Source: a virus
Virus record (IMG/VR): IMGVR_UViG_3300048839_000651
Coordinates: 1-25,387 of that record
Length of the DNA: 25,387 bases
Reading direction: 5' to 3' (one strand)
Shown: positions 3,004-10,906 of the stretch, piece after piece
Position numbering within the stretch: the first letter of the stretch is position 1
Layout: the number at the start of each line of letters is the position of its first letter
Translations under genes and position numbers: made by a program
Notes under the pieces: generated by a model
What the model was told of the DNA's origin: nothing
Database searches by the model: none
What the model saw: only the letters and a program-made list of their open reading frames with translations

Positions 3004-3501
3004 CTATGTCTCGGAGGCGACCTCGGCGTCGTGGGCGGCGATCGCGCGCCGGCGCGCCTCACGAGTGTGGGCCAGCTCGTGTGAGTCGATCATCCCTCGG
3101 AGTTCGGCGACGTCGAGGCTGTTCATGTAGTCGAGGCGGTCACGGCCGATCGCTTCGAAGAGCTGAAGGAACTTCGCGGTCAGGGAGCGGGGCATAGCGG
3201 TTTCGTCTTCCTGGGCAAACAGCCAGCCAACCTCCGCACCCACCACCCGAGCGAGTCGCTTCCACTTCTGCGGTCTGGGTGTGACACCCTTGGTCATCCA
3301 CTCGTGAACTGTTGGATTCGCCACTCCCATCGCCTTCGCGACGCCGTCTTGGTTGATCCCCGCGTTCTTCATCGACGCGCAGAGGCGGCGAGAGAACTCG
3401 AGACGATCCTCGGTGGTAGCGGCGAGTTTCTTTGCCACGCCGGAAAGGCTAACGGCGCGCGGCCTCTCGGCATTTAGGGGAGTCCGAAAAAACTCTTGCA
3501 T
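3004..3501 (-). CDS. CI-like XRE-family repressor
   Basis: A helix-turn-helix protein with its HTH at about residues 48-75 (INQDGVAKAMGVANPTVHEW). The segment RPQKWKRLARVVGAEVGWLF, characteristic of Cro/CI-type repressors, follows. The C-terminal 65 residues are helical and probably dimerise. There is no S24/LexA-type self-cleavage domain, so release by RecA would need another route. The longest frame starts with ATG at 3501, with GGAG 10 nt upstream. The first 21 residues look poorly protein-like and contain operator 3, so a GTG start at 3438 (144 aa, VAKKLAATTEDRLEF) is a serious alternative. The gene sits between two operator pairs and divergent to the Cro-like gene, the expected position for the lysogeny repressor. 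Confidence 0.87.
   Translation of the reverse strand: MQEFFRTPLNAERPRAVSLSGVAKKLAATTEDRLEFSRRLCASMKNAGINQDGVAKAMGVANPTVHEWMTKGVTPRPQKWKRLARVVGAEVGWLFAQEDETAMPRSLTAKFLQLFEAIGRDRLDYMNSLDVAELRGMIDSHELAHTREARRRAIAAHDAEVASET
3474..3488. promoter_or_regulatory. Operator 3
   Basis: TTAGG-GGAGT-CCGAA, nearly identical to operator 2. It lies upstream of the rightward -35 box and 44 bp centre-to-centre from operator 4. With the long repressor frame it falls within codons 5-10 of that gene. With the shorter GTG start it would be upstream of the gene and could control its transcription. Confidence 0.75.
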
Positions 3502-3524
3502 AGCTCGCGTGCTCCATTTAGGAT
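3496..3524 (+). promoter_or_regulatory. Rightward promoter (PR-like)
   Basis: TTGCAT (3496-3501), 17-nt spacer, TAGGAT (3519-3524); a mirror of the leftward promoter. The -10 box overlaps operator 4. The expected start near 3531 is within two bases of the Cro-like ATG at 3533, so the first gene may be translated from a leaderless message. Confidence 0.65.
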
Positions 3525-3532
3525 TGCCCTAC
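3518..3532. promoter_or_regulatory. Operator 4
   Basis: TTAGG-ATTGC-CCTAC, one base off the perfect arm pair, with the same centre as operator 1 in reverse complement. It overlaps the rightward -10 box and ends immediately before the ATG of the Cro-like gene. Its AGGA (3520-3523) could also act as a weak ribosome site. Confidence 0.78.
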
Positions 3533-3781
3533 ATGGAGCTGCATCCGTTGCGCGAGTTGCGGAAGTCGCTGGGTCTCAACCAGCGCCAGTTTGCCGGCGA
3601 GGTCGGTCTTCACCCGACCTATGTCAGCCAGCTCGAAACGGGTTCGGAGCCCGTTGGGAAGACCACCGCCTTGCGAATCGCCGACCGCTACCGCCTCGAG
3701 ATGGCGCGGCTCGGCATAACGATCGAGGACCTGATGCGCGGCTCGCGGGCGCGGCCCGATCCGGCCGGAGCTGCCGCATGA
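3533..3781 (+). CDS. Cro-like XRE-family regulator
   Basis: An 82-aa helix-turn-helix protein. The HTH spans about residues 16-37 (NQRQFAGEVGLHPTYVSQLE), the classic XRE pattern with the ET/SQLE turn. A helix with DRYRLEMARLGITIEDLM follows, then a short disordered Pro/Ala tail. It is the first gene of the rightward transcript and faces the CI-like repressor, so it most likely plays the Cro role and binds the same TTAGG-N5-CCTAA operators. The ATG at 3533 follows operator 4 directly. The frame is open further upstream to 3353, but that stretch is antisense to the repressor and contains the promoter, so the internal ATG is preferred. Confidence 0.85.
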   Translation: MELHPLRELRKSLGLNQRQFAGEVGLHPTYVSQLETGSEPVGKTTALRIADRYRLEMARLGITIEDLMRGSRARPDPAGAAA

Positions 3782-6780: not shown

Positions 6781-7232
6781 GACTGCGGCCGCGCCTTGAG
6801 CGCAACGGCGTGGCGCGCGTTCGTACGCCGCGCGACGAGATGAACCGGATCGAGCGAACCTATGCGAACCAGGTGATCGCTCCGCTCTGCATGGCAGGCA
6901 AGGTCGTCTGGTGGGGCTTCCAGCCGATCAAGCTCCAGCTCGGGAAGGCCTGCTACTACGAACCCGACTTCCTCCTGCAGATGGCCGACCTATCGCTGGA
7001 GTGTCACGAGCTCAAGGCAACTTGGAGGGAGACGCGGAAGGGGAAGACCGCGAGCACCCGGGTCGGATGGGAGGAGGACGCGCGCGTGAAGATCAAGGCC
7101 GCTGCCTCTCGGTATCCGTTCCTGCGCTTCATAGCGATGGCGCATCGCAAGGAGTTCGGCGTCTCGCAGTGGGACGAGGAAGAGATCCAACCCGACGGCG
7201 TCGTCTACATTCCGACAGGGGTGCAGACCTGA
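6777..7232 (+). CDS. PD-(D/E)XK-type phage nuclease
   Basis: A 151-aa protein. The core reads YEPDFLLQMADLSLECHELK (61-80), i.e. the PD...E-x-K catalytic signature with D64, E78 and K80, plus an N-terminal helix with EMNRIERTYANQV. A downstream VKIKAAASRYPFLRFI segment is typical of phage DUF1064/VRR-like nucleases. It would cleave DNA with Mg2+; in phages this type commonly resolves branched intermediates during replication or packaging. The start is GTG at 6777 overlapping the previous TGA (GTGA). It lies between the DUF3310 and HNH genes. Substrate preference is not readable from sequence. Confidence 0.8.
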   Translation: MRLRPRLERNGVARVRTPRDEMNRIERTYANQVIAPLCMAGKVVWWGFQPIKLQLGKACYYEPDFLLQMADLSLECHELKATWRETRKGKTASTRVGWEEDARVKIKAAASRYPFLRFIAMAHRKEFGVSQWDEEEIQPDGVVYIPTGVQT

Positions 7233-7651
7233 TGGCACGCGCATCACTGCGACAGTGCGGAGCGAGAGGATGCCGCGCCCTCGTGCGCGGCGCGGGCCGC
7301 TGCCCTCCGCACGCAGCGGAGGCGAGGGCGGCATGGCAGGCGCGCTCGTCTCCGCGCGCGCGCGGCTACGACGCAGCCTGGGACAAGCTGAGCCGCGAGA
7401 TCCGCAAGCGCTTCCCGATCTGCTCTGTGTGTAACGAGAGACCGACACAGATCGTGGATCACATCATTCCGCGATCGGCAGGAGGAGCGAACGTGGCGGC
7501 GAACGCGCAGCCGCTCTGCAGGCCTTGCCACGGACGGAAGACGGCACGCGATCGCGCGCAGGGGGTGGGGGGGGTCGGATCCTCGCAGCCCCAAGGGGGC
7601 CCGGACCGGGTGGGGATTCTTCCTCACGCGCCGGCGAAAATGCCCCGATGA
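7232..7651 (+). CDS. HNH endonuclease adjacent to terminase
   Basis: A 139-aa protein. An N-terminal zinc-ribbon-like part (C9, C14, C24, H27) precedes a classical HNH module: CSVC (64-67), QIVDHIIPRSAGG (73-85), NAQPLCRPCHGRKT (91-104). H77, N91 and H100 are the expected active-site positions, and the four cysteines bind structural zinc. HNH proteins encoded immediately before the terminase genes, as in HK97-type phages, assist cos cleavage by the terminase, and this is the likely role here. The ATG at 7232 overlaps the upstream stop (TGATG). The C-terminal tail is Gly/Pro-rich because it is encoded by the G-run region at 7561-7615, so the tail may be constrained by DNA function rather than protein function. 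Confidence 0.92.
   Translation: MARASLRQCGARGCRALVRGAGRCPPHAAEARAAWQARSSPRARGYDAAWDKLSREIRKRFPICSVCNERPTQIVDHIIPRSAGGANVAANAQPLCRPCHGRKTARDRAQGVGGVGSSQPQGGPDRVGILPHAPAKMPR
7561..7647. other. Candidate cos / packaging-start region
   Basis: G5-T-G8 (7561-7574), then a GCCCC-AA-GGGGGC inverted repeat (7588-7600), then CCCGG-A-CCGGG (7600-7610) and another G4 run, all within the last codons of the HNH gene and just before terS. This placement between HNH and small terminase is where many HK97-type phages carry cos. The exact cut cannot be seen. Confidence 0.4.
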
Positions 7652-8154
7652 AACCGACCAGCGGCATGGGACGCGGTCGTCCGCCGAAACCGACCGCGCT
7701 GAAGATCCTTCAGGGCGGTGACACGCGGAAGAGTCGGCGGAAGAACGAGCCGAAGCCCGATGTCGGAATCCCCGAATGCCCGGAGTATCTCGACGGCTAC
7801 GCGCGCGCCGAGTGGGAGGCTGTCGCGCCGATCCTCGAGCGCCTCCGTGTCCTCACGACCGCCGACCGCGGAGCGCTCGAGCTGCTCTGCCGCGCATACG
7901 CAGAGTATCGAGAGGCGACCGAGACGGTCTCCGAGGACGGCGCGACCTACGAGAGCACGAACGCCGAGACCGGAGCGGTGATCATCAAGGCGCATCCGGC
8001 GGTCAACCAGCGCAACGACGCATGGCGCCGCTACCGCGCCGCGCTCGCCGACTTCGGTCTGACGCCGAGCTCGCGCGCGAAGATCGCAGTCGAGCCCGAG
8101 AAGCCGAAGGACCCGATCGCCGACTGGAAGGCGAAGCATGGCCGCACGGCGTAG
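7648..8154 (+). CDS. terS: Terminase small subunit, P27 family
   Basis: A 168-aa DNA-recognition subunit of the packaging motor. The start GRGRPPKPTALKILQGG (8-24), a basic stretch, EPKPDVGIPECPEYLDGYAR and the downstream LTTADRGALELLCRAYAEY are the recognisable P27-type pattern. The remainder is helical (oligomerisation) and ends with a Lys-rich tail that likely contacts the large subunit. The ATG at 7648 overlaps the HNH stop (ATGA) and the end overlaps terL by 17 nt. The frame is open upstream to 7525 without a stop, which matters for the slippage idea noted among the findings. Confidence 0.92.
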   Translation: MKPTSGMGRGRPPKPTALKILQGGDTRKSRRKNEPKPDVGIPECPEYLDGYARAEWEAVAPILERLRVLTTADRGALELLCRAYAEYREATETVSEDGATYESTNAETGAVIIKAHPAVNQRNDAWRRYRAALADFGLTPSSRAKIAVEPEKPKDPIADWKAKHGRTA

Positions 8155-10906
8155 GGCGAAGCAGTCCGTAGAGCAGAAGGTCGCCGGCTACATCAAGGCG
8201 GTGAAGACCGGCAAGCGGATCGCCGGCAAGCTCGAGAAGCTGGCGGTCGCGCGCTACGAGCGCGACCTGAAGCGCCGCGCCGAGACGGGATTCCACTTCG
8301 ACCGCGCGGCCGCGCTGCGCGTCTGCGAGTTCTTCCCGCTCTTGAAGCACTACAAGGGCCGCTGGGCCGGGCGTCCGATCGAGCTCGAGCCGTGGCAGCT
8401 CTTCATCCTCTGGAACGTGTTCGGCTGGAAGCGCGCCGATGGCACGCGCCGCTTCCGGACGGTCTACGAGGAGATCGCCAGGAAGAACGGGAAAGCGCTT
8501 TGGGTAGACACGCCGATTCCGACGCCGTCTGGCTGGTCGAAGATGGGCGTTCTGAAAGTCGGCGACGAGGTCTTCGACGAACGTGGGAAGGTCTGTCGCG
8601 TCACGTTCGCGACAGAGATTCAGCACCAGCGCGAGTGCTATCGCGTCACATTCTCCGATGGAACATCGATCGTCGCCGACGCTGATCACCTCTGGCAGGT
8701 GTCCGAGCGAAACGTCGTTGGACCGCGTCTCACTGATACCAGCACGCTCGCGCGGCGGTGTGAGATCGAGAGATCAGACGGAGGCATCGAGCGCCGCTAC
8801 TCGATTCCCGTGGCCGGTCCGCTGCGGACCGAAGGAGTCCTGCCGCTGCCGGTCCCGCCGTACACGCTCGGAGCATGGCTCGGAGATGGTCACGCGGCCT
8901 CCGCCCGAATCACCTGCTTTGACGTAGAGATCATCGAGCGCATCAGGAAAGACGGTGTTCCGGTGGAGGCTCGGAAGAGTTCGAACACCGGCCGCGCGAC
9001 GACCTACCAGCTCGGTCCGCATCGACCCGGCGCTGGCGGCCGATCGTTCCAATCGGCGCTCGTCAGACTCGGTGTTCTGAATGAGAAGCATCTTCCGCCC
9101 GCGTATCTCCGTGCACCGATCTGCGACCGCCTAGAGCTGTTGCGCGGGCTGATGGATACCGACGGTCACGCGACAAAGGCCGGTCAGTGCGAGTTCACGA
9201 CTACGAGCGAGGTGATCGCTCTGGGGGTCATGGAGCTGGTTCGCTCGCTCGGCTTCAAGCCTTCGATGACGAGCGGGAGGGCAACGCTCTACGGCCGCGA
9301 CTGCGGCCCGAAGTATCGCATCCAGTTCTGTGCCTACGCGGATCTGCCTGTGTTCCATGTGAGCCGGAAAGCAGAGAGGCTGAAGCCTGCTCCAGCGTTT
9401 GCGACGAGGGCCAGCACGCGCCAGGTCGTGTCGGTTGCGCGAACGCCTTCGGTCCCTGTGCGCTGCATCCAGGTGGACTCTCTGTCTCACCTGTATCTCG
9501 CTGGCGAGAGCATGGTTCCGACGCACAACACGACGAAGCTTGCCGGGATCGGACTCTACCTCGCCTTCTTCGACGACGAGCCGGGCGCCGACGTCTACGC
9601 CGCGGCGACAAAGCGCGACCAGGCGCGCATCTGCCACGGCGACGCCGTGAAGATGGTCGGAGCATCGCCGGGCCTCGGGATCGAGAAGCGCCGCGACAAT
9701 CTCCACATGCTGGCGACGGCCTCTAAGTTCGAGCCGCTGGGCGCCGACGCCGACACGATGGACGGCCTCAATGTTCACGGTGCGATCGTCGACGAGTTCC
9801 ACGCGCACAAGAACCGCGACGTCCTGGATCGCCTCGAGACCGGCGTCGGCGCGCGGACGCAGCCGCTGGTCTGGATGATCACGACCGCCGGTGACGACCA
9901 GCAGTCGCCGTGTTTCGCAGAGCGAGAGCGCGCGCGCTTCGTGCTCGAGGGGGTCACTGCGGACGACACGCTCTTCGCGTTCATCGCCTCTCCGGACGAG
10001 GGAGACGACTGGACCGACGAGCGCACCTGGTCGAAGGGGAACCCGAACCTCGGCGTCTCGGTCACGGTCGAGAGCCTCCGCGACGAGTGCAACTCGGCGC
10101 AGCAATCTCCGTCGAAGCAGAACGCATTCCGCCGCTTCCGCCTGAATGAGTGGACGCGCACGACGACGCGATTCCTGGACCTTGCGAAGTGGGACATCTG
10201 CTCGGGTCTGACACGCGATGCGCAGCCGATCGACATCCTTGAGACGCGCCAGGGTGCCGTCTGCTACGGCGGTCTGGACCTCTCGAGCAAGACGGACCTC
10301 ACTGCCTTCGCGCTGGTATTCCCGCCGTCCGAACCGAACGAAGGGACCTTCGACGTCGCGCTGCGCTTCTGGGTTCCGGAGGAAGGCATCTACGAGCGCG
10401 AGAAGAAGGACGGCGTGCCGTATGCGCGCTGGGTCGAGGAGGGGTGGATCGTCGCGACACCCGGGCCGGTCATCGACTACGCCTGGATCTTGAAGGAGCT
10501 GACGGACATCTCGAAGCGCGTGCAGCTCCAGGACGTCGCCTTCGACGGATGGGGATCGACCGCCATCCGGCCCCAACTCGAGGACGCCGGCCTCCTGATG
10601 GTCGAGTTCGGGCAGGGCTTCAAGTCGATGTCGGACCCGACGAAGGAACTCGAGCGACTCACGCTCAGCAAGCGGATTCGCCATGGCGGAAACCCGGTGC
10701 TGCGCTGGAACGCGGACTGCGTCGAGGTCCAGACGGATCCGGCGGGCAACATGAAACCGGTGAAGCCGGACATCCGGAAGAGCACCAAGAGGATCGACGG
10801 GATCGTCGCGATGATCATGGCGCTTTCGCGTGCCATCGAGATGGGAGCCGATCCCGAGCCCGACGACCGAAGCATCTACGAAGAGCAGGAGCTGTTGGTC
10901 CTATGA
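8138..10906 (+). CDS. terL: Terminase large subunit (intein-containing precursor)
   Basis: The ATPase/nuclease motor that translocates and cuts phage DNA. The 922-aa precursor holds a 345-aa intein at residues 120-464; spliced, it is 577 aa, normal for HK97-type enzymes. The P-loop is IARKNGK (113-119) continued after splicing by TTKLAGIGLY. Walker B is AIVDEFH (549-555) and the coupling motif is near LVWMITTAGDD. The nuclease domain supplies acidic residues D714 (GGLDLSSKTD), D803 (AFDGWGST) and D887 (RIDGIVAM). It works with the upstream small subunit and the portal downstream. The ATG at 8138 overlaps terS by 17 nt, with GGAAGG as ribosome site. Without splicing the ATP site would be split, so activity must wait for intein removal. 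Confidence 0.97.
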   Translation: MAARRRAKQSVEQKVAGYIKAVKTGKRIAGKLEKLAVARYERDLKRRAETGFHFDRAAALRVCEFFPLLKHYKGRWAGRPIELEPWQLFILWNVFGWKRADGTRRFRTVYEEIARKNGKALWVDTPIPTPSGWSKMGVLKVGDEVFDERGKVCRVTFATEIQHQRECYRVTFSDGTSIVADADHLWQVSERNVVGPRLTDTSTLARRCEIERSDGGIERRYSIPVAGPLRTEGVLPLPVPPYTLGAWLGDGHAASARITCFDVEIIERIRKDGVPVEARKSSNTGRATTYQLGPHRPGAGGRSFQSALVRLGVLNEKHLPPAYLRAPICDRLELLRGLMDTDGHATKAGQCEFTTTSEVIALGVMELVRSLGFKPSMTSGRATLYGRDCGPKYRIQFCAYADLPVFHVSRKAERLKPAPAFATRASTRQVVSVARTPSVPVRCIQVDSLSHLYLAGESMVPTHNTTKLAGIGLYLAFFDDEPGADVYAAATKRDQARICHGDAVKMVGASPGLGIEKRRDNLHMLATASKFEPLGADADTMDGLNVHGAIVDEFHAHKNRDVLDRLETGVGARTQPLVWMITTAGDDQQSPCFAERERARFVLEGVTADDTLFAFIASPDEGDDWTDERTWSKGNPNLGVSVTVESLRDECNSAQQSPSKQNAFRRFRLNEWTRTTTRFLDLAKWDICSGLTRDAQPIDILETRQGAVCYGGLDLSSKTDLTAFALVFPPSEPNEGTFDVALRFWVPEEGIYEREKKDGVPYARWVEEGWIVATPGPVIDYAWILKELTDISKRVQLQDVAFDGWGSTAIRPQLEDAGLLMVEFGQGFKSMSDPTKELERLTLSKRIRHGGNPVLRWNADCVEVQTDPAGNMKPVKPDIRKSTKRIDGIVAMIMALSRAIEMGADPEPDDRSIYEEQELLVL
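8495..9529 (+). mobile_element. Class 3 intein with LAGLIDADG homing endonuclease
   Basis: A self-splicing insert of 345 residues, starting with Ala1 (so no N-terminal Cys/Ser nucleophile) and ending VPTHN345, with Thr as the +1 extein residue. The class 3 signature is complete: W67 in block B (DADHLWQV), C324 in block F (VRCIQVDS) and T343 two residues before the terminal Asn. In this class the block-F Cys makes the first attack. A DOD homing endonuclease lies in the middle: LGAWLGDGH (125-133), KHLPPAYL (198-205) and LLRGLMDTDGH (215-225), the two acidic helices of LAGLIDADG enzymes. Both halves look intact, so it may still home. Boundaries were set by aligning the interrupted P-loop GK|TT. 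Confidence 0.95.

Follow-up and report, generated by a model that had tools for sequence, protein, structure and literature searches.

In the 25,387-base virus record analysed here (IMG/VR record IMGVR_UViG_3300048839_000651, hereafter the window), a phage terminase large subunit (TerL) is almost certainly interrupted by a class 3 intein that includes a LAGLIDADG homing endonuclease and lies at the site TerL1-a, with the Walker A Lys on one side and the Thr on the other. The class 3 assignment, the Walker A insertion and the intact-looking homing endonuclease are supported by sequence, tree and predicted fold, and the intein is real, complete and probably active. The features of the gene were delimited as follows:

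8138..10906, + strand: terminase large subunit precursor (922 aa, 577 aa once the intein is removed)
8138..8494, + strand: N-extein (119 aa; final motif ARKNGK with the Walker A lysine; placed by intein-free relatives, which align over the junction with no gap)
8495..9529, + strand: class 3 intein (345 aa, in frame within TerL)
8495..8710, + strand: N-terminal splicing domain (blocks A to B, with His65 and Trp67; placed by alignment to the class 3 DnaB inteins 6bs8, 6rix and 6riy and by invariant columns)
8852..9406, + strand: LAGLIDADG endonuclease domain (residues 120-304; PF14528, E 7e-06, and alignment to PI-SceI)
9407..9529, + strand: C-terminal splicing domain (blocks F and G, with Cys324, Thr343, His344 and Asn345)
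9530..10906, + strand: C-extein (begins with Thr+1, TTKLAG; remaining ATPase part and nuclease domain)

Host gene and intein class

The precursor ORF matched the Pfam families PF20441 (E 4e-46) and PF03354 (TerL_ATPase, E 2e-27), with both outer parts matching the terminase large subunit, and phrog_9 (terminase large subunit, E 1e-164). The surrounding genes encode a small terminase subunit, portal, head protease, major head protein, head-tail adaptor and tape measure, so the record derives from a tailed phage or prophage. Reading the translations by eye also revealed, ahead of the terminase genes (window 3004-3781 and 6911-7651), two divergent helix-turn-helix-like frames and an HNH-like frame, which would fit a temperate phage.

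An earlier note, made from the sequence alone, had placed the intein at 8495-9529 (345 aa), with Ala1, W67, C324, T343 and N345, and had given 577 residues for the predicted spliced product; all of these values were exact. The intein begins with Ala-Leu-Trp and ends with Thr-His-Asn, followed by the extein Thr (+1). Class 3 inteins do not require Ser, Thr or Cys at residue 1 and are marked by the WCT motif: Trp at B:12, Cys at F:4 and Thr at G:5 (PMC3196547). In the window intein, residue 1 is Ala and the motif is complete (W67, C324, T343). The further class 3 residues, His at B:10, penultimate His, terminal Asn and Ser/Thr/Cys at +1 (PMC5222942), correspond to H65, H344, N345 and Thr+1, which completes the signature set. 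His65, Trp67, Cys324, Thr343, His344 and Asn345 were invariant in 12 aligned inteins. The spacing (Trp at 67, Cys 21 and Thr 2 residues before the last Asn) is identical in the TerL intein of mycobacteriophage Fenn, and the solved M. chimaera DnaB1 intein has His65, Trp67, Cys124 and Thr143 at the equivalent positions (PMC7664689), with the same spacing.

Alignment with class 3 inteins, suggested in the earlier note as a check of its class 3 reading, bore that reading out. The top phmmer matches among solved structures were the class 3 DnaB inteins of M. smegmatis and M. chimaera (E 8e-30 to 3e-28), spanning intein residues 1-71 and 305-345, and tblastn matched the full intein length to mycobacteriophage inteins (E 3e-68). 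A chance match is excluded by these values (E 8e-30 to a solved class 3 DnaB intein; E 3e-68). The note had also named a phylogeny as one way to overturn class 3 identity. A tree built on 108 columns of the splicing domain (71 + 37) included nine class 1 references and none of class 2. The branch dividing class 1 from the other inteins (SH-aLRT 92.7, bootstrap 87) left the window intein on the class 3 side; with 108 columns only, this bootstrap lends the split moderate support. An AlphaFold2 model of the intein, built on a 12-row alignment, had a mean pLDDT of 89 and a pTM of 0.88. Foldseek matched its splicing domain to the class 3 DnaB intein 6bs8 (TM 0.90, by target length) and the whole model to PI-SceI (E 1e-18).

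It is exceedingly improbable that the element is instead a class 1 intein, in which splicing starts at residue 1, or a class 2 intein, in which Thr+1 directly attacks the N-terminal junction, with Cys324 incidental. Ala1 is compatible with class 2, where residue 1 need not be a nucleophile, and Thr+1 could serve as one. In class 1 inteins, however, the first nucleophile is the Cys, Ser or Thr that opens the intein, and Ala1 is none of these; Trp67, Cys324 and Thr343 were co-conserved in 102 of 103 sampled relatives, the class 1 references have no block F Cys, and the tree grouped the window intein with class 3. By motif and tree, class 1 or 2 identity was rejected.

Decay of a class 3 intein to a non-splicing form, leaving the terminase dead, has a precedent in the Arthrobacter Arth_1007 pseudogene (PMC3196547). 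For the window this is very improbable: the frame is open, the terminase domains on either side match their families strongly, and the catalytic residues are complete, whereas Arth_1007 lacks the block B His and the block F Cys (PMC3196547).

Insertion site and endonuclease

The intein interrupts the Walker A motif between Lys and Thr (ARKNGK/TTKLAG, the slash marking the insertion), as the earlier note had it. When the joined extein was aligned with about 80 intein-free terminases, no gap was found at the junction (GK/S or GK/T): Gly-Lys preceded it in 79 of 81 rows, and it was followed by Ser in 64 and by Thr in 16. The odd row, L080, is out of register and has its start at a contig edge. 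Among the relatives retrieved with the C-extein, the closest was L010, which has a single mismatch to the window over the 24 bases that precede the junction. The site TerL1-a, between the invariant Lys and Thr, was described in mycobacteriophages (Kelley et al., 2016, PMC5050341); the window has both the Terminase_1 extein (PF03354) and the insertion between Walker A Lys and Thr (GK/T) that define it. In the same study, five terminase inteins, all at sites other than TerL1-a, spliced in a reporter, and both inteins tested for endonuclease activity (TerL1-b and TerL1-c, 2/2) cut intein-free targets (Kelley et al., 2016, PMC5050341).

Both LAGLIDADG motifs reported earlier are present and intact: LGAWLGDGH at residues 125-133 and LRGLMDTDGH at 216-225. 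In PI-SceI, Asp218, Asp326, Lys301 and Lys403 have established catalytic roles. Asp131 and Asp223 of the window intein align with Asp218 and Asp326, and Lys198 with Lys301, but Arg295 stands at the Lys403 position, leaving one endonuclease residue uncertain. With both motifs and both catalytic Asp (131 and 223) retained, homing is plausible, in line with the earlier view of the endonuclease as intact; the endonuclease is predicted to be active. The L002 and L090 inteins carry, in the endonuclease domain, an inserted C-x-RGH ... C-x2-C stretch that resembles a small zinc-binding element and is absent from the window intein in the alignment.

Relatives and history

Phage and virome collections contain many class 3 type inteins. 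The earlier note had called class 3 inteins rare, which is wrong for phages. An alignment query of IMG/VR returned at least 578 confirmed stretches, and the Trp-Cys-Thr motif was found in all but one of the 103 relatives sampled. The junction was K/T or K/S in 92 of the 103; as these inteins were picked for similarity to the window intein, the fractions are no census. Among their exteins were terminases of several families, Toprim/AAA replication proteins and one portal protein. The Walker A junction thus hosts most of the sampled virome relatives, in terminases of several families; this is consistent with class 3 having a phage setting. The window intein adds one more instance to a type that has been described before and is common in phages, and alone it raises no new question. 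A scan of genome contigs for relatives found only three, all distant, and 42 other genomes of the same order as that of the Oligoflexales relative gave no match.

Several sampled inteins departed from the common pattern. That of the Vibrio phage 12VC501 terminase (L102), the sole exception among the 103, has Ala1, the block F Cys and the Thr, but Asn in place of the class 3 Trp. L205 (2498-3529) and L206 carry class 3 type inteins (Trp, block F Cys, Thr) with Cys1 instead of Ala1, and the host protein matches Pfam only in the endonuclease. Three terminase inteins (L165, L185, L195) are inserted three residues further upstream, in front of the P-loop Ser-Gly-Lys, and in L165 and L185 the penultimate His is replaced by Cys or Gly. 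In L188 (1250-4600), a class 3 type intein interrupts a P22-like portal protein, which is not an ATPase.

In the intein tree, the window grouped within a set of 15 (SH-aLRT 93), all from the same terminase family, with L002 nearest. Inteins clustered by extein family more than under shuffled labels (12 changes for family F00, against 34), with changes still repeated. In the terminase tree, intein-bearing rows were interspersed with intein-free ones (9 changes, at least 6 of them forced by well-supported branches); several long branches converge in this tree, so placements of single rows are unsure. Most of the nearest inteins were more alike than their C-exteins (L002 versus the window: intein 55%, C-extein 44%). 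The intein had a GC3 of 0.74, whereas values for the extein and for the portal, head and tape genes were 0.86-0.94; the codon log-odds of the intein were 0.08, against 0.39-0.57 in the surrounding genes. Taken together, foreign codon use, patchy distribution, the closer likeness of the inteins than of the C-exteins and the repeated changes suggest that the intein was gained by horizontal transfer.

Alternatively, the intein may still splice while its endonuclease no longer homes, so that inheritance is now mainly vertical. The grouping by terminase family and the Arg295 at the Lys403 position speak for this reading, which we consider rather doubtful: both catalytic Asp residues are retained, the intein is patchily present on the terminase tree, and its codon use is foreign.

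Proposed mechanism and comparison with known systems

We infer splicing, each of its chemical steps, DNA cleavage and mobility as follows. Judging from published class 3 intein work, His65, Cys324 and Thr343 would form a cysteine-protease-like triad. Attack of Cys324 on the Lys-Ala1 peptide bond would yield the block F branched intermediate. The acyl group would then be transferred to Thr+1, cyclisation of Asn345 would release the intein, and an O-N shift would link Lys to Thr, restoring the GKT P-loop. Mobility would come from the endonuclease: cleavage of intein-free terminase genes at the junction, followed by repair with the intein-bearing copy as template, would let the element spread. 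That the intein is retained as a packaging regulator, with splicing, hence formation of the terminase P-loop, set by the redox state of Cys324, is a very unlikely conjecture, along the lines of a proposal made for a mycobacterial DnaB intein (PMC6195587).

The window supplies one clean, apparently intact class 3 intein at the phage terminase Walker A site. PI-SceI (the yeast VMA1 intein) is likewise an intein with a LAGLIDADG endonuclease, but it splices by the class 1 route, unlike the window intein. The class 3 DnaB inteins of M. smegmatis and M. chimaera (6bs8, 6rix, 6riy) share splicing-domain sequence, fold and catalytic positions with the window intein; they are 139-146 residues long, have no endonuclease and lie in a helicase, whereas the window intein has 345 residues and an endonuclease and lies in a terminase. 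L002 and 13 other IMG/VR stretches belong to the terminase family of the window and share the Walker A junction where both sides are known, with C-exteins 33-48% identical to that of the window. The mycobacteriophage protein NelitzaMV gp9 (TerL1-a) has in common with the window the insertion point ARKNGK/T, the Trp-Cys-Thr motif and a LAGLIDADG intein; the two inteins are 42% identical over their full length, whereas the C-exteins of mycobacteriophage TerL1-a terminases are only 31-33% identical to that of the window.
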